From contig NZ_CP126095.1 in NCBI RefSeq assembly GCF_030123105.1, positions 3,038,001 to 3,102,000 on the forward strand: a stretch of DNA of 64,000 nucleotides. The letters run 5' to 3'. The notes below the pieces were generated by a model. It was given only the letters and a program-made list of their open reading frames with translations. It did not search any database and had not been told where the DNA came from. Position numbers and translations under genes: made by a program. This DNA comes from Paenibacillus sp. G2S3 (lineage in GTDB: Bacteria; Bacillota; Bacilli; Paenibacillales; Paenibacillaceae). How positions within the stretch are numbered: the first letter of the stretch is position 1; each line of letters opens with the position of its first letter. Below, piece after piece: positions 42,046 through 52,135 of this stretch.

Positions 42046-42687
42046 GTGGATGAAGATCTTCATTTATTAGTGCAACCTATTTCAAAAGAATACTGGGATG
42101 GAGCAGCAGAAACAGTCATACGTTTAGGATATCCACGTGTGAAAAGCATATTGTCGGGTTTACTTGAATGGATACAAGATATAAATTGGCCAGGTGCGGG
42201 GGAAATAGCTGTTTTTTTACTTGAAATAGGGGATCCGATGATTCCATATGTTAAAGATGTACTAAATCAACACAGTGATGATGAAGAATGGGTGTACAGG
42301 ATTTTTAATGATTTAATTGATCATAGGAATACGGCACAAATCCTACAGATACAAGCAGAATTAATTAAGATTTCACAGGAAAAAGCCATTGATCTTTTGG
42401 CATTAAGAATCTTATTAACTCACGATATATACGCAAAAGATGTGGTCTGTGAAATAATCCAGCGCAAAAAAGATGTCCTTGTATTTGAACTCAAGGAACT
42501 TCATGATACTCATCCTGAAATTGATTGTGAAGCTCTTTATACAGAATTCTTCAATCAGCAGCCTAATGTAATTAAACAGTTTCATGAGCACAATAAAGAA
42601 CGTTTTTATATACGTAATGCGATATCAAAGCGCCAAGAGTATTTAAGTGAGATTGAGATTTTCACAGCTGAGTTTCTCACTTCGTGA
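42046..42687 (+). CDS. DUF5071-domain protein
   Basis: I start it at GTG 42046, 6 bases after AGAAGGTG; an upstream GTG at 42037 lies inside that site. The 213-residue protein has a DUF5071-like N-terminal half (about 1-110, helical, with NWPGAGEIAVFLLEIGDPMI). A helical C-terminal half follows, rich in charged residues. No function is known for the domain. It is often found beside immunity and toxin genes in Bacillales, but no toxin is evident here. Confidence 0.65.
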   Translation: MDEDLHLLVQPISKEYWDGAAETVIRLGYPRVKSILSGLLEWIQDINWPGAGEIAVFLLEIGDPMIPYVKDVLNQHSDDEEWVYRIFNDLIDHRNTAQILQIQAELIKISQEKAIDLLALRILLTHDIYAKDVVCEIIQRKKDVLVFELKELHDTHPEIDCEALYTEFFNQQPNVIKQFHEHNKERFYIRNAISKRQEYLSEIEIFTAEFLTS

Positions 42688-42722
42688 AGTTATACTGAAA
42701 TAAATTGAAAGGAGACTTACCA

Positions 42723-43616
42723 GTGAACAACATCAAAGTGCTTCATTATGATGCGTTTTCTCCCTATCCGAACAAAGGAAATCCAGCTGGTGTAGTATTA
42801 AATGCGGCTCATTTGAGCGAAAGTGACATGCAATCGATAGCTCATAAGGTTGGCTTTAATGAAACAGTTTTTGTAGTCCCATCAGATGTAGCGGACTTAA
42901 GACTTAAGTATTTTACGCCAGGCCATGAGATCAATCTTTGTGGACATGCTACAATGGCATCTTTATTTGCTTTAAAAACAAAGGGGATCCTTGGAGAGGC
43001 TAGCTCGGTAAAGATCGAAACAAATGTGGGCGTGCTGCCGATCCAATTTAGCTTCGATAAAAACAATCAAGTAATGATAAAAATGAAGCAAGATCAACCG
43101 AAGTTTATTGAATTTAACGGCGATAGAGCGAAGCTTGCGCACTCCATAGGCTTATCCCTTGACGAGTTGGAAGAAGACATGCCTATTGTTTATGGCTGTA
43201 CTGGTGCATGGACTCTATTAGTCCCAGTTAAGAGTATAGATAGCTTTAATAAAATGAAGCCGATAAATTCATTGTTTCCAGAGATTTTAACGCAGCTTCC
43301 AAAAGCATCTGTACACCCATTTTCACTCCAAACTCTTGATCCGCACGCTTTAATGCATGCTAGACATTTCTCATCGCCTTTTTCGGGAACCGTTGAAGAT
43401 CCAGTAACAGGTACAGCATCGGGAGTTATGGGGGCTTATTATTTAAAATATATTGATCCGCACATGGACTCGATCCAATTTGATGTAGAACAAGGACAAG
43501 AAATCGGTAGAGATGGGAAAGTAAATGTAGAAGTGTATCGATTAGATTCTGATAGAATGGATGTGTTTATTTCCGGAACTGCGGTGTTTGTGGGGGAGGT
43601 AGATTTATGGAAATGA
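42723..43616 (+). CDS. PhzF-family isomerase
   Basis: GTG 42723 follows AAAGGAGA by 7 bases; the TTG at 42705 lies within it. The 297-residue protein has the two-fold PhzF barrel with GNPAGVV near 19-25, the catalytic Glu47 in GFNETVFV and NLCGHATMAS near 70-79. A VTGTASGVMGAYY follows near 229-241. PhzF enzymes isomerise or epimerise small carboxylic acids; most are not in phenazine pathways. It overlaps the Nudix gene by 10 bases. Confidence 0.87.
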   Translation: MNNIKVLHYDAFSPYPNKGNPAGVVLNAAHLSESDMQSIAHKVGFNETVFVVPSDVADLRLKYFTPGHEINLCGHATMASLFALKTKGILGEASSVKIETNVGVLPIQFSFDKNNQVMIKMKQDQPKFIEFNGDRAKLAHSIGLSLDELEEDMPIVYGCTGAWTLLVPVKSIDSFNKMKPINSLFPEILTQLPKASVHPFSLQTLDPHALMHARHFSSPFSGTVEDPVTGTASGVMGAYYLKYIDPHMDSIQFDVEQGQEIGRDGKVNVEVYRLDSDRMDVFISGTAVFVGEVDLWK

Positions 43617-44041
43617 TAAAATATACTCATCTTGGAGTGTATGGAGTCTTAGTGAAGAACGATAAAGTATTACTAATTAAGAAAGCAAGAGGCCCTCATA
43701 CGGGAAAGTGGGACTTTCCAGGTGGATCTATAGAGTTTGGAGAGGAGCCTTATCAGACCCTTAAGAGGGAGTTTTGGGAAGAGACCGGGATTAGAAGTTT
43801 AAAAGGATTGCTTCATGATTCCATTTCCTATACGCTAATTTATCCATACAGTGACACCCAGTTAGAAGAATTACACCATATAGGAATTATATATAATGTT
43901 TCATTGTTAGATTTGAACTTTGAGCTTAAGACCGATGGGGACGGACAAGATTCTGATGGGGCACAGTGGATAGAAATTGAACAATTAGACAGCCTTGCAT
44001 TGACACCTTTTGTGAAGAAAATAATGCTGGGTCATTATTAG
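43607..44041 (+). CDS. Nudix hydrolase
   Basis: A 144-residue protein with an intact Nudix box: GGSIEFGEEPYQTLKREFWE then ETGI, near 39-62. It starts at ATG 43607 (GGGGAGG 7 bases upstream), overlapping PhzF. It is most like MutT-type pyrophosphatases. The substrate is not evident. It ends 33 bases before the first TusA-like gene. Confidence 0.87.
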   Translation: MEMIKYTHLGVYGVLVKNDKVLLIKKARGPHTGKWDFPGGSIEFGEEPYQTLKREFWEETGIRSLKGLLHDSISYTLIYPYSDTQLEELHHIGIIYNVSLLDLNFELKTDGDGQDSDGAQWIEIEQLDSLALTPFVKKIMLGHY

Positions 44042-44074
44042 AACTCTAATGATCTATGGAATGGAGGCAGCTTC

Positions 44075-44290
44075 ATGTTTGAAATTGATTGTTTGGGAGA
44101 AATCTGTCCAGTCCCAGTAATGATGTTAAAAAAACATCAAAAAGCTATTCAAAATGGTGAAAAGGTGATGCTAGTTACTGATCATAGCTGCGCAAGAGTT
44201 TCCATCACGGATTACTGTCGTGGTTCAAATTTGAAATGTTCCATTCAAGAAGTCATTAATGGGGTATGGGAGATTACGATTGAGATATAG
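44075..44290 (+). CDS. TusA-family sulfurtransferase (first copy)
   Basis: A 71-residue protein with the TusA signature CPVP (Cys11 as persulfide carrier) in DCLGEICPVPVMM and a second conserved DHSCA near 36-40. It is small and cytoplasmic. It converges with the LysR gene that controls the neighbouring sulfur locus, ending 2 bases before the LysR stop. It is most similar to the second copy at 46106. Role: likely relay of sulfane sulfur or a selenium-like chalcogen. Confidence 0.85.
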   Translation: MFEIDCLGEICPVPVMMLKKHQKAIQNGEKVMLVTDHSCARVSITDYCRGSNLKCSIQEVINGVWEITIEI

Positions 44291-44292
44291 GT

Positions 44293-45177
44293 TCAACATA
44301 ATGTATCAATCAATGTCTTTTCTATATAACGAATTAATTGTTTCGTATCATTGTCACAACGCCGATTGTGTTTTTTTACCATGTAGACATCGTTAATCAC
44401 TTGGAACTGATCAATAGGAATGATCTTGAGTTGTTTACTATACAACTCTTTTTTTATGGACATATAAGGAAGGAAGGCGACACCATGTCCTCTAATGGCA
44501 GTAAGCTTTACCGCCTCAAGGGAGTCCAGATTAAAAAGTATATTTAATTTAAGCTCCCCCGCTGATACGTTGTTTAAAGCCCTTTGCACACAATGAAGCT
44601 GTGAGGACCAGATTAAAGGATATTTAGGGAGCTCATTCAGTGTGATTTTATCAGGACAAACGGTCGTACTGCTTGCCACCAGCATAACTTGATCAGAAAA
44701 TACCATAGTGGAGCTTAATTCGGATTTCGGGGAAGGGCCGGATATAAAGCCAACATCACCTTCTTCAAGTAGTAAACGTTCTTCCACTAGAGACGATGCC
44801 CCTTCGTTTAGACTGATATGGCAATTGGGAAAATGTTTTTTTACCTCATATAAGGTGCAGGGCAGGGCATAATTACAGACTTCTGGAATCGCATAAATAG
44901 ATAGCTCATGTTGTGTTGGCTGTAAATGATTGATCTCTGTGACCATATCATCATACAATTTACAGATTTGCTCCACGTACTTCTCCGCAATAATCCCCGC
45001 TTCGGTTAGGCTAGCACCTTTATTACTTCTCACAAAAAGTTCAGAACCCAGGGTATTCTCCCATGATTTTAACTGCTGACTAAGTGCGGATTGGGTGATA
45101 TGAGATTTCTGAGCGGCTTTAGATATACTTTTTAACGAAGCAATATCTAAAAATAATTTAAGCGTTTCCAAATTCAT
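44293..45177 (-). CDS. LysR-family regulator of the sulfur locus
   Basis: The 294-residue protein has the LysR helix-turn-helix near 3-60 (LKSISKAAQKSHITQSALSQQLKSWE) and an effector-binding domain. It is divergent from the YeeE-TusA-YeeE operon, with a T-N11-A palindrome in the gap. By position it is the likely activator. Its effector is not known; a sulfur metabolite such as O-acetylserine or thiosulfate is plausible by analogy with CysB/CysL. Confidence 0.87.
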   Translation of the reverse strand: MNLETLKLFLDIASLKSISKAAQKSHITQSALSQQLKSWENTLGSELFVRSNKGASLTEAGIIAEKYVEQICKLYDDMVTEINHLQPTQHELSIYAIPEVCNYALPCTLYEVKKHFPNCHISLNEGASSLVEERLLLEEGDVGFISGPSPKSELSSTMVFSDQVMLVASSTTVCPDKITLNELPKYPLIWSSQLHCVQRALNNVSAGELKLNILFNLDSLEAVKLTAIRGHGVAFLPYMSIKKELYSKQLKIIPIDQFQVINDVYMVKKHNRRCDNDTKQLIRYIEKTLIDTLC

Positions 45178-45255
45178 ACTTATTCCCCCTGTTGCCCGCT
45201 GTTAGTGCACACTATAGCATACTTGATTACGCTCCATCTGTGCCATTAGTAACAC

Positions 45256-45268
45256 TTATACAGCATAA
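45256..45268. promoter_or_regulatory. LysR-type T-N11-A box
   Basis: TTAT-ACAGC-ATAA is a palindrome with T at 45256 and A at 45268, the T-N11-A pattern of LysR sites. It lies between the divergent LysR and YeeE genes. Confidence 0.4.
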
Positions 45269-45351
45269 AGAAAGCAGATAACCACAGCTCGAATAAGTAT
45301 GTTACTATTTTCACATAGTCAATTACATAAAAACGATGGAGGTGTTAGACG

Positions 45352-46041
45352 ATGGGGCAAACCGTAAGTCCCGAAACGAGGTCAACCCGAACCAGAGCTC
45401 CTAGAAAACCAAAAAAGAGTCAGTTGCCCATCGCGTTGCTGGTCACCGTTCTTATCATTGGATTTGGTTTTTTCCTAGACCAAGCCCACGATAAAATGGT
45501 TGTCTACTTGCTGTTCGGTATTTCGTTTGGCGTTATTTTGCAAAGATCACGCTTCTGCTTTACGGCATCTCTTAGAGATCCATGTATTACAGGCAGCACA
45601 TCGGTTACAAGAGCGGTACTGATTGCTTTTTCCCTGGCTACGATCGGATTTACAGCCATTAAGTACCCAGCATTTCTGGAAGGGAAACCGATTCCTGGGA
45701 TGGACAATGTGGGTCAGATCAGCTTCGCTTTGATTATTGGTGCTGTATTATTTGGAATTGGCATGGTTATTGCGGGTGGTTGCGCTTCTGGTACTTTGAT
45801 GCGTGTAGGTGAAGGTTTTACGATGCAGATGTTGTCACTTGTATTCTTTGTCATTGGTTCACTTTGGGGATCACATGATATGGGGTGGTGGAGAGCTAAC
45901 GTTATAAAGGATGCACCAACTGTATTTTTACCAGACGTATTTGGTTGGCTTGGCGCACTTGTTGTTCAGTTCCTGATCATTCTTCTGTTGTACATCGCTG
46001 CAGTTAAATGGCAAGAGAAAAAGATGGGGAGCGCAGATTAG
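45352..46041 (+). CDS. YeeE/YedE-family membrane protein, first half-size unit
   Basis: A 229-residue protein with a charged N-terminus (about 1-24) and about five membrane helices. It holds the family signatures RSRFCFTASLRDP near 63-75 and AGGCASGTLMRVGEG near 142-156. These cysteines line the conduction path in the thiosulfate transporter TsuA. Full-length TsuA-type proteins are about 330-350 residues; this one is half that and is paired with a second half at 46356. The start follows GATGGAGGTG. Confidence 0.83.
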   Translation: MGQTVSPETRSTRTRAPRKPKKSQLPIALLVTVLIIGFGFFLDQAHDKMVVYLLFGISFGVILQRSRFCFTASLRDPCITGSTSVTRAVLIAFSLATIGFTAIKYPAFLEGKPIPGMDNVGQISFALIIGAVLFGIGMVIAGGCASGTLMRVGEGFTMQMLSLVFFVIGSLWGSHDMGWWRANVIKDAPTVFLPDVFGWLGALVVQFLIILLLYIAAVKWQEKKMGSAD

Positions 46042-46105
46042 TTTAAGAAATTACGTGAATATTTTCACTATTTAAGTCCAAAAAAAGATAAAGGTGGTTA
46101 TTAAA

Positions 46106-46333
46106 ATGGCTGAATTTACACTTGATTGCATGGGAGAAGCTTGTCCGGTTCCGTTAATGAGAACAGAAAAGAAAATGACTGAACTCAATGTTGGTGATGT
46201 ACTAGTAGTGGCTATAGATCATAGCTGCGCAATGAAAAACGTTCCAGAATGGGCGAGAAAACAGGGACATCATGTGGAAATCGAAGAGGTAGATGATGGC
46301 GAATGGGAAGTTATTATTGAGAAGGTAAAATAA
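46106..46333 (+). CDS. TusA-family sulfurtransferase (second copy)
   Basis: ATG 46106 follows AAAGGTGG by 8 bases. The 75-residue protein has DCMGEACPVPLM with the persulfide Cys13 and the DHSCA motif. It is encoded between the two YeeE-type genes, an arrangement matching a TsuA-TsuB (thiosulfate uptake and sulfur carrier) pair. It likely accepts sulfur on the inner face and hands it to biosynthesis. Confidence 0.87.
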   Translation: MAEFTLDCMGEACPVPLMRTEKKMTELNVGDVLVVAIDHSCAMKNVPEWARKQGHHVEIEEVDDGEWEVIIEKVK

Positions 46334-46355
46334 GATCGGTTACTAGGAAAGGACG

Positions 46356-46916
46356 GTGAATGAAACGGTGAACGAATTCTGGTTGAAGATATCGTCTAAC
46401 CGCTTTTACAAGCGCTTGCTCAAAGAACCGTTTACTTATGTAACTGGAGCTGTACTTCTCGCTGTGTTTGCTACAGCACATCTAGCCGTTTTCTCTAAAG
46501 GATGGGGAGTAACTAGCGCTTTTGCGGATTGGGGAGCATGGCTGTATCGATTAGCAGGCGGAAATGTAGATCAATGGGCTTATTTTAGTTCAGAAAAAGC
46601 ACAAAAAACATTATCTTCCGGATTTTTGAATGATGGTGGTTCGATTCGAAATCTAGGAATTATCTTAGGTGCTTTAGCAGCGACTTTGTTTGCTTCCGAA
46701 TTCAAGCTGAAGAAAATTAAGTCCAAAAAGCAAGTTGTGGCGGCGGTTCTTGGTGGCTTACTTATGGGGTACGGCGCTAGACTGGCAAATGGATGTAATA
46801 TAGGTGCATTGTTTACGGCTATAGCTTCTTTATCTCTTTCAGGATGGATTTTTGGATTGTTCCTGCTGGTTGGCGCATTTATAGGCAGTAAATTATTAGC
46901 CAAATTTTTTATGTAA
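46356..46916 (+). CDS. YeeE/YedE-family membrane protein, second half-size unit
   Basis: A 186-residue protein starting at GTG 46356 (a GTG at 46368 is also possible). It has about five membrane helices. It carries GYGARLANGCNIGALF near 138-153, the matching second family motif with a conserved cysteine. The protein begins with a longer amphipathic N-terminus. Together with the 229-residue protein it would form the pseudo-symmetric full transporter. It is 22 bases after TusA and in the same operon. Confidence 0.82.
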   Translation: MNETVNEFWLKISSNRFYKRLLKEPFTYVTGAVLLAVFATAHLAVFSKGWGVTSAFADWGAWLYRLAGGNVDQWAYFSSEKAQKTLSSGFLNDGGSIRNLGIILGALAATLFASEFKLKKIKSKKQVVAAVLGGLLMGYGARLANGCNIGALFTAIASLSLSGWIFGLFLLVGAFIGSKLLAKFFM

Positions 46917-46998
46917 AAGTGAAATAGGCTGAGCTTGTAGCGCTGACGAGAGTCAGCCTATTTAATTAAGGCACAGACTCACTGGAGGGACAAACGGA

Positions 46999-48219
46999 AT
47001 GGAAAAGAAGACAGAACACTATGATGTCGTCATTATAGGTGGAGGAGCTGCTGGATTAACAGCGGGAATCTATTGTGGACGAGCGAAATTAAAGACTCTT
47101 CTCTTGGAAAAATCACTGGTAGGTGGTCTTGCCACCTATACTAATGAAATAGAAAATTATCCTGGTTTTCCTGAAGGAACGACCGGTACAGACCTTATGG
47201 GATTATTTCATAAACAAGCTAAGAAATTTGGTGTGGATTTTAAAATGACAGATGTAAAATCTGTTTCGGTAGCGGAAGATATTAAGGTAGTGGAGACCTT
47301 TCGGGTTCGTTATGAGTGCAAGGCCATTATTATAGCTAGTGGGGGAAAACCAAGAATTACCGGGGCAGCTAATGAAAATATGTTCTTATATGATAAAGGA
47401 ATTTCATTCTGTGCAACCTGTGACGCTGCGGCCAATACGGGAAAGACGGTTATGGTCGTTGGCAGTGGTGATGCTGCTATTGAAGAAGGAATGTTTCTGA
47501 CCAAGTTTGCAGATAAAGTGATCGTTTCTGTTATGCATGATCATGGCAAAATGGATTGTAATGAAATTGCCAAAACTCAGGCGCTAGAAAACCCTAAAAT
47601 GGAATTCATGTGGAATACGGTGGTAAGTTCTTTCGAAGGTGAAGAACGCTTAAATTCCGTCGTCCTCAACGATTTAAAATCTAATAAACTTCAAAACGTA
47701 AAGGTTGATTCATGTTTCTTATTTATTGGATATACGCCGAACACAGAAGTTTTATCAGGTGTAGTAGATTTGAATCGAAATGGATATATACGTGTCAATG
47801 AAAAAATGGAAACGAATATACCTGGTGTGTTCGCAGCAGGAGATGTGTGTGATAAGCTCCTTAAGCAAGTGGCTACGGCTGTCGGTGATGGTGCCATTGC
47901 AGGATATGGTGCAGAGAAGTATATCTCTGAATGTGAGATCTATGAGCATCAAATTCTAAATCAAGGTAAACTATCCGTTGTCTATTTATGGAATGCAACC
48001 GATCCTTCTTGCCGGGAGCTATTACCACTCTTTGAGGCGTTTGAGCAATCCCATCCTGAGATTAGGGTCACAAAAGTAGACGTATATAAGTCACCCGGAC
48101 TTGCCGGCAAGCTAGGAATAGATTCAGTACCTTCTATTGTCTATTTAGATGATGGAAAGATCCAAAAGGTAATTACAGAGAAGATATGTGATGAAATAAT
48201 GAATGCTCTTACGAATTGA
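46999..48219 (+). CDS. Thioredoxin-reductase-like flavoprotein fused to a thioredoxin domain
   Basis: The 406-residue protein has FAD motif GGGAAG at 14-19, redox pair CATC at 138-141, nucleotide motif GSGDAA at 155-160 and GVFAAGD at 276-282. This makes it a low-molecular-weight thioredoxin reductase. Residues 324-406 form a thioredoxin domain with the cis-Pro in SVPS (about 376-379). Its WCGPC position reads as TDPSC, so only the second cysteine (Cys338) remains. The HRRxxxR motif for NADPH phosphate is absent (it reads VMHDHGKMDC). It is 82 bases after the YeeE operon and likely reduces a sulfur intermediate. Confidence 0.82.
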   Translation: MEKKTEHYDVVIIGGGAAGLTAGIYCGRAKLKTLLLEKSLVGGLATYTNEIENYPGFPEGTTGTDLMGLFHKQAKKFGVDFKMTDVKSVSVAEDIKVVETFRVRYECKAIIIASGGKPRITGAANENMFLYDKGISFCATCDAAANTGKTVMVVGSGDAAIEEGMFLTKFADKVIVSVMHDHGKMDCNEIAKTQALENPKMEFMWNTVVSSFEGEERLNSVVLNDLKSNKLQNVKVDSCFLFIGYTPNTEVLSGVVDLNRNGYIRVNEKMETNIPGVFAAGDVCDKLLKQVATAVGDGAIAGYGAEKYISECEIYEHQILNQGKLSVVYLWNATDPSCRELLPLFEAFEQSHPEIRVTKVDVYKSPGLAGKLGIDSVPSIVYLDDGKIQKVITEKICDEIMNALTN

Positions 48220-48224
48220 TGAAC

Positions 48225-48262
48225 AAAGCCACATGCAGATATCTCTGCATGTGGCTTTTTTT
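48225..48262 (+). terminator. Terminator of the sulfur locus
   Basis: AAGCCACATGCAGA/TCTGCATGTGGCTT stem with seven T after it. Confidence 0.9.
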
Positions 48263-48342
48263 CATCAAGCTTAAGTAATATCGGACGAGCCATATCAAGA
48301 CAGTGTCAAAGTATCAATAATAGTTGTTTTGTCATATACCTT

Positions 48343-48356
48343 TGAAAGCGCTTAGA
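48343..48356. promoter_or_regulatory. cre-like site upstream of the ABC importer
   Basis: TGAAAGCGCTTAGA matches the catabolite-responsive-element consensus TGWAARCGYTWNCW at all but one position (G for C near the right end). It lies about 130 bases before the first permease gene, so CcpA control by preferred sugars is likely. Confidence 0.55.
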
Positions 48357-48482
48357 TATTAAGATTGATTCATAAGGTCGCAAACCAACGGAGGGAGAGT
48401 AGGAGAAACCAAGGCTGCAAAAAGAGAGAAAGCCATGAAAGATGCTTTATTTATAAGAATCTAGGTTTAGGAGGACTTACAT

Positions 48483-49451
48483 ATGGCGAACGCAAGCGTC
48501 GCACCAGACAAGACATCAAGACCGAATCTCGGCAAGCATCGGACCAGCGGGATAAGACGCTTTTTTAAGCAAATAGATCTGCAGCTTATGGTATTGCCAG
48601 CACTTGTTTTAGTTTTTATTTTTGCTTATATCCCCATGTACGGTATTCTTATCGCTTTTCAAGATTACAAGTTAGGCAATAGCTTTATTAGCAGTGATTG
48701 GGTTGGATTAAAACACTTTATTTACTTCTTTAATGCTCCTGAATTTGAAGTGGTTATGAAAAATACAATCATAATCAGCTTGCTGAAGTTCTGTTTTGGA
48801 TTTCCTGCACCGATTATTCTGGCGTTAATGCTGAACGAAGTTCGGAAGATGTTCTTTAAGCGAGTTATTCAGACCGTTACATACTTGCCTCACTTCTTAT
48901 CTTGGGTAGTTATCGGCTCAATGGTTACCTCGATGCTATCCGTAGATAACGGCAGTATAAATATGCTGCTTGAGAAATTGAGATTTATTGATGAACCGAT
49001 TAACTTCCTTTCTATGACCGAATATTTCTGGGGCATTCTAGTTACAACCAATGTATGGAAGGAAATTGGATTTGCATCGATCGTCTACTTAGCTGCTATT
49101 GCTGGTATTGATCCGCACTTATACGAAGCTGCTTCGATGGATGGTGCGAGTCGCTTTAAACAGATATATTTGATTACGTTGCCTTCCATTATGCCAGTTG
49201 TGATCATCTTTATGATTCTGGCAATCGGTAATCTGGTGAATGCAGGATTTGAAGATATTTTGATCCTTGCTTCCAATCCGGCTCTACGAGAGGTATCAGA
49301 TTCAGTTGATGTATATGTTGTACGTGTCGGTATAGATAACTTCAGGTACTCCTATGCGACTGCTATCGGATTGTTCAAGGCCGTTATCAGTGTGACATTA
49401 CTTACCTTTGCAAATTTCATTGCCAGAAGAGCAGGAAACAGCTTGTGGTAA
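48483..49451 (+). CDS. Carbohydrate ABC transporter permease (LplB-like)
   Basis: The 322-residue protein has six membrane helices and the ABC-permease loop EAASMDGASRFKQIYLITLP near 213-232. The N-terminus with LPALVLVFIFAYIPMYGILIAFQDY is typical of the LplB family in Paenibacillus. It starts at ATG 48483 with TAGGAGGA. The second permease and the binding protein follow. The ATPase subunit is not encoded here and is probably shared (MsmX-type). Confidence 0.9.
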   Translation: MANASVAPDKTSRPNLGKHRTSGIRRFFKQIDLQLMVLPALVLVFIFAYIPMYGILIAFQDYKLGNSFISSDWVGLKHFIYFFNAPEFEVVMKNTIIISLLKFCFGFPAPIILALMLNEVRKMFFKRVIQTVTYLPHFLSWVVIGSMVTSMLSVDNGSINMLLEKLRFIDEPINFLSMTEYFWGILVTTNVWKEIGFASIVYLAAIAGIDPHLYEAASMDGASRFKQIYLITLPSIMPVVIIFMILAIGNLVNAGFEDILILASNPALREVSDSVDVYVVRVGIDNFRYSYATAIGLFKAVISVTLLTFANFIARRAGNSLW

Positions 49452-49480
49452 TGAATTACTCAATATAGGAGGACTGAATT

Positions 49481-50377
49481 ATGAAACGTACTAACATAGG
49501 AGACCGATTGTTTATTGGATTCATATATGTATTCTTGACCTTACTGGCATTCTCCGCGTTTTATCCATTTTGGAATTCACTTGTGATTTCTTTTAATGAG
49601 GGGATGGATACTTCCAAAGGCGGAATTACTTTCTGGGTTCGTGAGTTCACACTAGAGAATTATAAGATCGTATTTGAAGATTCTCGTTTAATGGGTGGAT
49701 TCGTCATTGCAACATTGCGGACGGTAATTGGTACAGTAACAGCGATATTGGCCACTTCGATATTTGCTTATGGGATGTCGAAGCGTGAACTGATGGGTCG
49801 CAAATACTACATGATTATGTGTATCATTACTATGTATTTCGGTGGGGGACTCATTCCGTCATACATGCTTATCAGAAGTTTAGGTCTCTTCAATTCATTT
49901 TGGGTGTTTATTATTCCTGCACTTGTCAGCGTATGGAATATGATCATATTCCGGACCTTCTTCCAAGGTCTTCCGCAAGGTTTAGAAGAGTCAGCGAAGA
50001 TTGATGGTTGTGGATATTGGGGAACTTTTCTCCGAATCGTGCTTCCCTTGTCGGGGCCAGTCATCGCAACATTATCGTTGTTCACAGCAGTCAATCACTG
50101 GAATGAGTGGTTCGTAGCGAGTATCTACATTACGAAAGAGGAGTTAATGCCGATTCAAACCATCTTGAGACAGATATTGTTCTCTAATATTGCTTCAGAA
50201 CAGCTGTCTAATGTAGATGCAAGTTCCATTGCTCATATTAACTCGGCCAAGAAAATAACCTCGAAGTCGTTAACGATGGCTACGATCATGGTTGCAACCA
50301 TTCCGATTGTATGTGTATATCCATTCCTACAGAGATTCTTTGTTAAAGGGGTCTTAGTCGGATCATTGAAAGAGTAG
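49481..50377 (+). CDS. Carbohydrate ABC transporter permease (YtcP/LplC-like)
   Basis: The 298-residue protein has six helices and the loop EESAKIDGCGYWGTFLRIVLP near 170-190, with the G of the EAA motif kept. The ending PFLQRFFVKGVLVGSLKE is the family signature. It starts 29 bases after the first permease with ATAGGAGGA, so the genes are one operon. Confidence 0.9.
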   Translation: MKRTNIGDRLFIGFIYVFLTLLAFSAFYPFWNSLVISFNEGMDTSKGGITFWVREFTLENYKIVFEDSRLMGGFVIATLRTVIGTVTAILATSIFAYGMSKRELMGRKYYMIMCIITMYFGGGLIPSYMLIRSLGLFNSFWVFIIPALVSVWNMIIFRTFFQGLPQGLEESAKIDGCGYWGTFLRIVLPLSGPVIATLSLFTAVNHWNEWFVASIYITKEELMPIQTILRQILFSNIASEQLSNVDASSIAHINSAKKITSKSLTMATIMVATIPIVCVYPFLQRFFVKGVLVGSLKE

Positions 50378-50449
50378 GATGATAGAATGAGATGGGGTTT
50401 AGAGCATATTGCTTTGAACATAGATTACAAATTGAAAGGGGAAAATACA

Positions 50450-52135
50450 TTGAAGACTAAGAGAAAGATGCTTCTCGGAACGTTGTCTACCTTGCTATTG
50501 ACGACTGTGGTGGCGGGTTGTGGTGGCAACAATTCTAGCGCTCCAGCTGCAACTGCTGAACCAGCGAAAGAAGGAGGAACAGCAGTTAACACAGCAACTG
50601 AAGCTCCAGCGGCTGATCTGTATGAGTTAGGGAAAGAACCGCTTGAAGTATCATTCTACGGTAACTACGGCTGGTATCAAATGCCGAAATGGGGCAAAGA
50701 TGCTGCTTCTAAATGGATTTTAGATAATTTGAAAATCAATGTCACTGGAATTAGCTCAGGTGGTAATAATGCTCAGAAGCTGCAAACGATGATCGTTGGT
50801 AATGAGCTACCGGATATTGTATGGACTGAGAAAGGTGCTGACGTAGAGCGTCTTCGTCAAGCAGATATGCTAGTTCCTTTGGATGAATACATTGATAAAT
50901 ATCCAAACTTTAAAAAGTACTTAACAGCTGGACATTTGGAATTGCTTCGTTCTCCTGATGGAAAAATCTATCAGCTGCCGAATTACTATACAACACAGCC
51001 AAACGGTAATGCCGGTTATGCTATCAATAAGAAGATTTACAAAGAACTCGGTTCTCCTAAGCTAGAGACTACGGATGATTTGTATGCTTACTTAAATGCT
51101 GTTAAAGCGAAGTTCCCAGATGTTATACCGTTTGAGACTGGCTTAGCTAAAGATGGTAACGGTATCGATCAGTTGTTCTCCTCTTTTAAAGAGAATAACC
51201 TTTCGTATACTAGAATATACGCTGTACCTGATGGCGACAAAATGGCTTCCATTTACAAAGATGAAGGGTTCCGTGAGTCCGTTGTCTTTGGTGCTAAATT
51301 AATGCGTGAGAAGCTAATGACGCAGGATGCGAACACCCAAACGGAAGACCAAATTAGAGAAAAAGCGATGAATGGTAAGTTTGCAGTAATTGCGACATTC
51401 GATCCGATGAAATTGCTTGCTACTGCTGATGAAGAGATGAAGAAGAAAAATCCGGAAGACGGTTATATGTTTATTAAACCAATTTACAAACCGGGCTTGG
51501 ATCAAAGTAAGATCACTCCGGGAACGTACAATCAGTTAGGCTGGAACGTTGCTACAATCACTAAAAATGCTAAAAATCCAGAAGCTGTATTCGCTATGCT
51601 TGACTGGATGACAGGACCAGAAGGTTCTATGGTTCTGAACTGGGGCCCTCCAGGACCAGACGCTTACTGGGATGGATTTGAAGCAGATGGACTTACTCCT
51701 AAATTTAATAAAGAAAAATATCTAAATGAGCCAGAAGCACTGTCTGAAATTAGTGGCAAGGCTGGAGACTTGGTATGGGTAGGAAATACGGTTTTCTTGG
51801 ATAATACGAAGAAAATGATGTTGCAAACCCTTCCAGCTGACAAAATTGACTTTAGTAACCGTTGGCAGATGGAAGTAACTTGGGCATCACAAGGCGACTT
51901 TACCGAGTTCCTAAATTGGGATCCGGCTCCAGACAGTGAAGAAGGTATTATCAGACAGAGTGTCCGAGATATCTGGTTAACTGCTAGAGCGAAATCAATG
52001 TATGCGAAGACTGATGCAGAAGCATTAGCTATTCTTGACAAAGCGCACGATGATTCCATGAAGGTTGGTTATGAGAAATTCCTTGATTATGTTACAAAAG
52101 TATGGACTGAAAACAAGAAAGCTTTAGGAAAATAA
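50450..52135 (+). CDS. Extracellular solute-binding lipoprotein of the sugar ABC importer
   Basis: I start it at TTG 50450 behind AAAGGGGA; an upstream ATG at 50387 gives a non-signal N-terminus. The 561-residue protein has a lipoprotein signal with lipobox VVAGC (Cys near residue 23), a Gly/Ala/Thr linker and a large binding domain. Its size and the LplA/YtcQ-type look suggest binding of an oligosaccharide. It follows the permease genes, and a terminator follows it. Confidence 0.88.
   Translation: MKTKRKMLLGTLSTLLLTTVVAGCGGNNSSAPAATAEPAKEGGTAVNTATEAPAADLYELGKEPLEVSFYGNYGWYQMPKWGKDAASKWILDNLKINVTGISSGGNNAQKLQTMIVGNELPDIVWTEKGADVERLRQADMLVPLDEYIDKYPNFKKYLTAGHLELLRSPDGKIYQLPNYYTTQPNGNAGYAINKKIYKELGSPKLETTDDLYAYLNAVKAKFPDVIPFETGLAKDGNGIDQLFSSFKENNLSYTRIYAVPDGDKMASIYKDEGFRESVVFGAKLMREKLMTQDANTQTEDQIREKAMNGKFAVIATFDPMKLLATADEEMKKKNPEDGYMFIKPIYKPGLDQSKITPGTYNQLGWNVATITKNAKNPEAVFAMLDWMTGPEGSMVLNWGPPGPDAYWDGFEADGLTPKFNKEKYLNEPEALSEISGKAGDLVWVGNTVFLDNTKKMMLQTLPADKIDFSNRWQMEVTWASQGDFTEFLNWDPAPDSEEGIIRQSVRDIWLTARAKSMYAKTDAEALAILDKAHDDSMKVGYEKFLDYVTKVWTENKKALGK

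Follow-up and report, generated by a model that had tools for sequence, protein, structure and literature searches.

Paenibacillus sp. G2S3 carries a putative sulfur-relay operon with a split YeeE channel, TusA carriers and a linked thioredoxin reductase-like flavoprotein

Positions 44075..48219 of the window (the whole stretch of 64,000 nucleotides from Paenibacillus sp. G2S3 that was analyzed; assembly GCF_030123105.1, contig NZ_CP126095.1, positions 3,038,001 to 3,102,000 of the forward strand) hold six genes in the order TusA1, a divergent LysR-type regulator, the first half of a split YeeE membrane protein (YeeE1), TusA2, the second half (YeeE2), and a flavoprotein of 406 amino acids (aa), which is related to thioredoxin reductase and ends in a thioredoxin-fold domain. 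In each of the 35 genomes that have the family of this reductase, counted over three genome samples, it adjoins YeeE and TusA2. With moderate confidence, YeeE1, TusA2, YeeE2 and the reductase can be read as an import-carry-reduce module, in which the two YeeE halves would import, TusA2 would carry, and the flavoprotein would reduce a sulfur cargo, most likely thiosulfate. Flavoprotein sulfur reductases have been described before, and so have split YeeE proteins and YeeE-TusA pairs. The new part is the joining of YeeE-TusA with a thioredoxin reductase relative bearing a pseudo-thioredoxin domain, as far as the open-access literature goes: among the titles and abstract openings listed, no reductase joined to YeeE/TusA was described, with subscription papers and preprints largely outside the scope. 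The reductase, never found away from YeeE and TusA in the three samples, may be an electron donor that is absent from the thiosulfate-uptake model, and it offers a lead for thiosulfate-reducing fermenters. In the Fusibacter genome paper, phsA/psrA and glpE were not detected, though the strain reduces thiosulfate (PMC10386464).

The linkage was followed through three samples of genomes. In the sample of 150 relatives, of which the host genome is one, the reductase family is present in 10 (E <= 1e-90), and these same 10 are the ones with the split YeeE1 (E at most 4e-73; next match 4e-22), adjacent in every case; the genome of one carrier, G023, is fragmentary, and its frames are broken. The family occurs in 16 of 291 Clostridia, set off by a clear gap (E of about 1e-141 or better; next match 4e-87), and is adjacent in all 16 (L031, L064, L066-L071, L074-L076, L079-L081, L084, plus G232, in which the contig breaks inside YeeE2 on L154 while YeeE1 and TusA2 stand on L065). 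Nine of 296 Spirochaetota have it as well, again with 9/9 adjacent. The initial annotation had proposed a survey for conserved linkage of the two halves, TusA and the reductase, and the family proved to be adjacent in 35/35 genomes rather than mostly apart from YeeE/TusA. Moreover, 32 named loci were collected by similarity to the reductase, a procedure that favors close kin, which is why the genome samples were used: the 21 loci at >=56% identity (L023-L043), from Paenibacillus, Lacrimispora and kin, Spirochaetes and one metagenome-assembled genome (MAG) labeled Accumulibacter, all adjoin YeeE1, TusA2 and YeeE2, while in the 11 loci at <=45% identity (L044-L054) none of these three genes lies in the stretch covered. 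The gene arrangement is not a product of chance, as it recurs far beyond the genus, and the surveys rule out a chance neighborhood.

A different account of this linkage is that the flavoprotein is a passenger, i.e., a thiol-stress or general redox enzyme that was carried along as a sulfur-uptake island was transferred and that leaves TusA2 untouched. Its patchy presence (10/150 relatives) would agree with that, as would the existence of YeeE loci without the reductase and a YeeE1 tree of 61 rows, in which a group formed by Lachnospiraceae and allies is the sister of the Paenibacillus rows. This position of the Paenibacillus rows suggests that the system reached the genus by transfer. In the same midpoint-rooted tree, the reductase label requires 5 changes compared to 19.9 in shuffles, a clustering that is eased by remaining near copies; near-copy or fragmentary loci (L032, L034, L036, L039, L042, L104-L106, L108, L110) and loci with weak YeeE1 matches were left out. 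A passenger should, however, sometimes stand alone, and no unlinked copy was found in the 35 genomes, with the best 6 (Clostridia, Spirochaetota) or best 12 (relatives) candidates scored per genome, so that further copies could escape. These genomes span Bacillota and Spirochaetota and differ in gene order: YeeE1-TusA2-YeeE2-reductase in the Bacillota loci with TusA2 and in Spirochaetota L145, L146 and L153, but TusA2-YeeE2-YeeE1-reductase in L147-L150 and likewise in L040 and L041. A mere passenger is therefore regarded as very improbable.

The host genome is a single contig of 6.7 Mb, and the closest named relatives of the reductase belong to Paenibacillus. A check of the open reading frames (ORFs) and a profile search bore out the initial annotation, which had placed the six genes within about 4.2 kb: all six frames are open, and all six products exceed their Pfam cut-offs. 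YeeE1, TusA2, YeeE2 and the reductase are co-directional and closed by a terminator-like hairpin. The features are as follows:

44075..44290, + strand: TusA1, a TusA-family carrier with C6, C11 (CPxP) and C39 (Pfam TusA 61.2 bits, cut-off 28.6)
44293..45177, - strand: LysR-type regulator, divergent from the operon (Pfam HTH_1 and LysR_substrate)
45255..45270, no strand: palindrome-like site CTTATACAGCATAAAG, a possible LysR site (mostly conserved in 12 Paenibacillus rows)
45304..45319, no strand: inverted repeat ACTATTTTCACATAGT, just 5' of YeeE1 (mostly conserved in the same 12 Paenibacillus rows)
45352..46041, + strand: YeeE1, 229 aa, with C69 and C144 (Sulf_transp 106.4 bits; alignment to 6leo)
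46094..46333, + strand: TusA2, with C12, C17 (CPxP) and C45, numbered from 46094 (Pfam TusA 89.8 bits, cut-off 28.6)
46356..46916, + strand: YeeE2, 186 aa, with C147 (Sulf_transp 121.3 bits; alignment to 8j4c)
46942..46957, + strand: weak hairpin between YeeE2 and the reductase (terminator-like scan)
46999..47931, + strand: reductase domain, a thioredoxin-reductase-like flavoprotein with CATC, and with the cofactor motif MHDHGKMDC at the site of HRRxxxR (Pyr_redox_2 154.1 bits)
47932..48219, + strand: C-terminal thioredoxin-fold domain with DPSC and no working CxxC, border approximate (Pfam Thioredoxin 37.6 bits)
48225..48258, + strand: terminator-like hairpin of 15 pairs followed by a T run, end of the operon (terminator-like scan)

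For TusA2, the listed start is GTG 46094, but ATG 46106 follows a stretch that resembles a ribosome-binding site and is the likelier start.

The two YeeE halves divide one Sulf_transp profile (PF04143, length 310, cut-off 27) between them, with half 1 covering 1-159 and half 2 covering 164-310, and nothing else in the genome matches Sulf_transp at E <= 0.001. When aligned to YeeE of Spirochaeta thermophila (StYeeE), C69 and C144 of YeeE1 are the counterparts of C22 and C91 (6leo), and C147 of YeeE2 is the counterpart of C293 (8j4c), i.e., all three relay cysteines are present, divided between the halves. In two Spirochaetota loci, YeeE2 and YeeE1 are fused into a single protein (L151, 413 aa; L152, 411 aa), and since the halves are fused in some genomes and split in others, it is reasonable to regard the pair as one putative membrane unit in two chains. 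The membrane unit split in two, as the initial annotation had it, is thus strengthened by the shared cysteines and the fusions, whereas splitting itself is already described: PmpA/PmpB (PMC11582611) and YedE1E2 (PMC10812762) are likewise YeeE/YedE units of two separate halves. The PmpA/PmpB halves have about 130 aa and one conserved cysteine each (PMC11582611), compared to 229 and 186 aa here, and the present operon differs from both systems by two relay cysteines in half 1 and by the inclusion of TusA2 and the reductase. Whole-chain relatives of YeeE occur in the order YeeE1-YeeE2, which is TsuA-like (Clostridia loci and two loci from the order of the window's host; L091-L101, L111, L112), and in the order YeeE2-YeeE1, which is YedE-like (L113 and five loci of the Paenibacillaceae order, these five accompanied by a TusA gene; L113-L117, L122). 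The YeeE family looks circularly permuted, judging from the order of its halves.

The cysteines of the two carriers are well preserved. In TusA1 rows from reductase-bearing loci, C11 and C39 are found in 31/31 and C6 in 29/31; in the corresponding TusA2 rows, which include near-identical strains and lack L040 (sorted elsewhere owing to overlapping frames), the CPxP cysteine C17 and C45 are found in 45/45 and C12 in 44/45. In YeeD of E. coli, two cysteines, C13 and C39, are important when the cells grow on thiosulfate (PMC11073785). The sole other TusA match in the genome, at 1640933-1641142, falls within a reading frame of 861 aa, which is itself a weak match to the reductase, and a Spirochaetia MAG (L037/L153) has two TusA2 genes.

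The flavoprotein has the fold of thioredoxin reductase, as confirmed by an AlphaFold model (mean pLDDT 84.1, pTM 0.75; below 50 at residues 45-60 and 288-292) and Foldseek among the best 50 matches listed; the closest solved chain is 2q7v of Deinococcus. It shares fold and CATC with TrxB, but reaches 320.2 bits on TIGR01292, below the cut-off of 343.45 (TIGR03385: only 55.7), has an extra domain and lacks HRRxxxR, the motif that binds NADPH. Two TrxB-like genes elsewhere in the genome are 39% identical to it. In a family set of 323 sequences, which consists of the query and 322 homologues collected by similarity to three family members (best 120 each) and is not an independent sample, CATCD is present in 323/323, the two dinucleotide-binding glycine motifs are retained, and H180, G183, D186 and C239 do not vary. 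HRRxxxR occurs in 0/323, compared to 13/13 ordinary reductases aligned beside the family, the two TrxB-like proteins of this genome included. The loss of this motif suggests that the enzyme might use NADH or have a relaxed cofactor preference. Two residues were rejected as marks of the family: C187 is found in 135/138 of a close set but is alanine in 120/323 of the wider one, and C239 is shared by some ordinary reductases.

The initial annotation described the protein as a fusion of thioredoxin reductase and thioredoxin. Both domains indeed exceed their Pfam cut-offs (Thioredoxin at residues 314-402, 37.6 bits compared to 23.5), but the thioredoxin part here has no working dithiol: it reads WNATDPSC, and the first active-site cysteine is gone. 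Over the family, the CxxC is complete in 6/323, the second cysteine stands alone in 165/323, and neither is left in 152/323, while the cis-proline of the fold is kept in 323/323. Among 36 locus-derived rows, one more complete motif beyond these six, CPNC, was found in the Spirochaetia MAG reductase (L037/L153), and the L079 and L081 reductases, whose cofactor motifs are partly different, lack the thioredoxin domain. As these two do without it, the domain is dispensable to the family, and by its residues it is unable to act as a dithiol in nearly all members. The incomplete CxxC rules out a working thioredoxin domain here and in almost the whole family, and the pseudo-thioredoxin is a clear case of a redox domain that is retained as a fold after its chemistry was lost.

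The closest functional model is TsuA/TsuB (YeeE/YeeD), which likewise combines a YeeE-type channel, three relay cysteines and a TusA-family partner with CPxP, and for which thiosulfate is proposed to pass three YeeE cysteines to a fourth one on YeeD, where it is decomposed (PMC11073785). The electron route and the acceptors of the YeeD sulfur are given as unknown by the same authors (PMC11073785). Here, the channel is encoded by two genes that flank TusA2, the set is enlarged by a reductase and a second TusA, and the equivalog cut-offs are missed: TusA2 reaches 49.3 bits on NF041048 (cut-off 147.5), and the halves reach 77.0 and 63.9 bits on the TsuA model NF052577 (cut-off 400) and 60.8 and 41.8 bits on NF041049 (cut-off 645), cut-offs that are set for whole chains and that half-length proteins are not expected to reach. 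Because the operon holds each part of the YeeE/YeeD type together with an accompanying disulfide-reductase flavoprotein, the simplest reading is that the reductase would supply the missing electrons to TusA2. YeeE1 and YeeE2 would form one YeeE/YedE-type channel, which passes a sulfane-sulfur anion, most likely thiosulfate, along C69 and C144 of YeeE1 and C147 of YeeE2. TusA2 would dock at the cytoplasmic exit and take the sulfur group onto its CPxP cysteine, and the flavoprotein would then reduce the loaded TusA2 with NAD(P)H and its CATC dithiol, freeing sulfide (and sulfite, if the cargo is thiosulfate) and resetting the carrier. The thioredoxin-fold domain might bind or orient the carrier, i.e., serve as a dock.

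Several observations weigh against such a module. The reverse linkage is weaker: 34 of 291 Clostridia have a YeeE1 relative, split or whole (E <= 1e-20), and 16 of these 34 have the reductase. Split YeeE without the reductase occurs in 11 Clostridia loci that were read (L072, L077, L078, L082, L083, L085-L090; L073 stops at a contig edge), and second copies that are split and lack it occur in three more loci, L091-L093. No TusA2 lies between the halves in L072, L077, L078 and L085-L088, while TusA2 is kept without the reductase in L082, L083, L089 and L090. Since split YeeE loci, some of them with TusA2, occur without it, the reductase is not obligatory, and the dedicated redox enzyme of the initial annotation holds from one side: beside YeeE/TusA2 in every sampled genome that has it, but optional for YeeE. 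The other TusA and TrxB-like genes of the genome are possible true partners, and the L079 and L081 reductases differ as noted above. Finally, among the NCBIfam transporter models, both halves score best on the selenium model YedE/FdhT (NF033796; 105.2 and 109.3 bits, cut-off 350) and thus higher than on thiosulfate TsuA, though nowhere near a cut-off (for YedE/FdhT, too, half-length proteins are not expected to reach it), and import of zero-valent sulfur is reported for YedE1E2, a split relative (PMC10812762).

The last two points concern the cargo. If the same module handled zero-valent sulfur or polysulfide, the channel would pass persulfide sulfur, and the reductase would act as a persulfide reductase on TusA2. 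YedE1E2 and the preference of the halves for the YedE/FdhT model would fit this, as would the rhodaneses that adjoin the reductase in L037 and L038; however, the YedE1E2 halves have about 14 kDa, and YeeE1 additionally carries the cysteine that corresponds to StYeeE C22, in line with the thiosulfate transporter, so that such a cargo is considered unlikely. Alternatively, the transporter and the TusA pair might deliver selenium species, from which the reductase would make selenide for SelD. The best transporter and regulator models (YedE/FdhT and NF040786) are selenium-associated, at three other loci as well, and SelD exceeds its cut-off in 9/10 carriers compared to 79/140 other relatives, and in 10/14 carriers reached via named loci. 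Yet these models all stay below cut-off, the order of the halves is permuted relative to YedE/FdhT, SelD is common in these relatives, and the counts ignore kinship. Moreover, no SelD over cut-off was found in five carriers, i.e., G001, G152 (Lachnotalea glycerini), G159 (Clostridium sp. E02), G161 and G162. Because G001 is a complete genome on one contig, selenium is not required; a pure selenium system is weakened by these carriers, and the selenium account as a whole seems quite improbable.

Thiosulfate is favored as the cargo of the import-carry-reduce module by the three cysteines and the CPxP partner, by a parallel in Thermotoga maritima, and by a match of the reductase family to a Thermoanaerobacter name: the L080 reductase is 95% identical to a protein bearing that name. 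The parallel involves NSR of T. maritima, which is of the CoA-disulfide-reductase type, whereas the present protein is thioredoxin reductase-like by its scores on TIGR01292 and TIGR03385. Thiosulfate reduction is described for Thermoanaerobacter (PMC10386464). In T. maritima, a yeeE/dsrE/tusA cluster is induced 42.6-fold by thiosulfate, and NSR, encoded elsewhere (under a locus tag other than that of the yeeE cluster), resembles the present enzyme: it is a flavoprotein of the cytoplasm that uses NAD(P)H, acts as a thiosulfate reductase and is co-induced with yeeE (PMC9431562). A bolder extension, which is put forward tentatively and as less than probable, is that fermentative anaerobes have an unrecognized cytoplasmic system for reducing thiosulfate (sulfane sulfur), which the operon would represent. 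In this system, an NADH-linked relative of thioredoxin reductase with a redox-dead thioredoxin dock would directly reduce loaded TusA, and the system would later have moved into Paenibacillus. If true, this would explain how thiosulfate is turned into sulfide in fermenters without a PhsA-type reductase. A role as a stand-in for absent sulfate assimilation was rejected: PF01507, the PAPS (3'-phosphoadenylyl sulfate) reductase family, is found in 7/7 same-genus carriers and in 17/19 genomes searched, although it also matches in all 14 control genomes and is no proof of sulfate use.

Sulfonate-type transporters, rhodaneses and a DegT/ATP-grasp/glycosyltransferase cassette are recurrent neighbors in Clostridia, but they do not single out one substrate. 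The cassette, with DegT aminotransferase, glycosyltransferase, ATP-grasp ligase and SsuA-like binding protein, lies beside LysR/TusA1/YeeE in L037, L066 and L085-L088. One genome, G295, has two split YeeE-TusA2 loci, L084 with the reductase and L082 without it. In L082, L083 and L090, which have split YeeE and TusA2 but no reductase, DsbD_2/HMA and TatC genes are nearby, in part accompanied by FMN_bind and C_GCAxxG_C_C; these genes are possibly another redox supply. A flavoprotein-rhodanese fusion of about 569 aa (one representative scanned, from L096) occurs in 13 loci with YeeE relatives, mostly whole-chain (L072, L077, L078, L091-L098, L100, L101). Such other redox genes near YeeE relatives fit a general need for reductant.

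The LysR-type regulator probably controls the operon. Its best NCBIfam model is the selenium-associated NF040786, at 162.4 bits compared to a cut-off of 250. The 12 Paenibacillus rows of the upstream alignment, in which the two candidate sites are mostly conserved, include several near-identical ones. A scan for terminator-like sites returned 3 in the region compared to 3.5 in shuffles, which is not above chance, and a promoter scan returned 6 sites compared to 12.4 in shuffles; no Rfam match was found within 42600-50500, and riboswitch control was rejected. On the 3' side of the operon, between 48483 and 52135 of the window, two genes resembling ABC-transporter permeases and one for a lipoprotein-like binding protein follow, named by eye from the ORF list.

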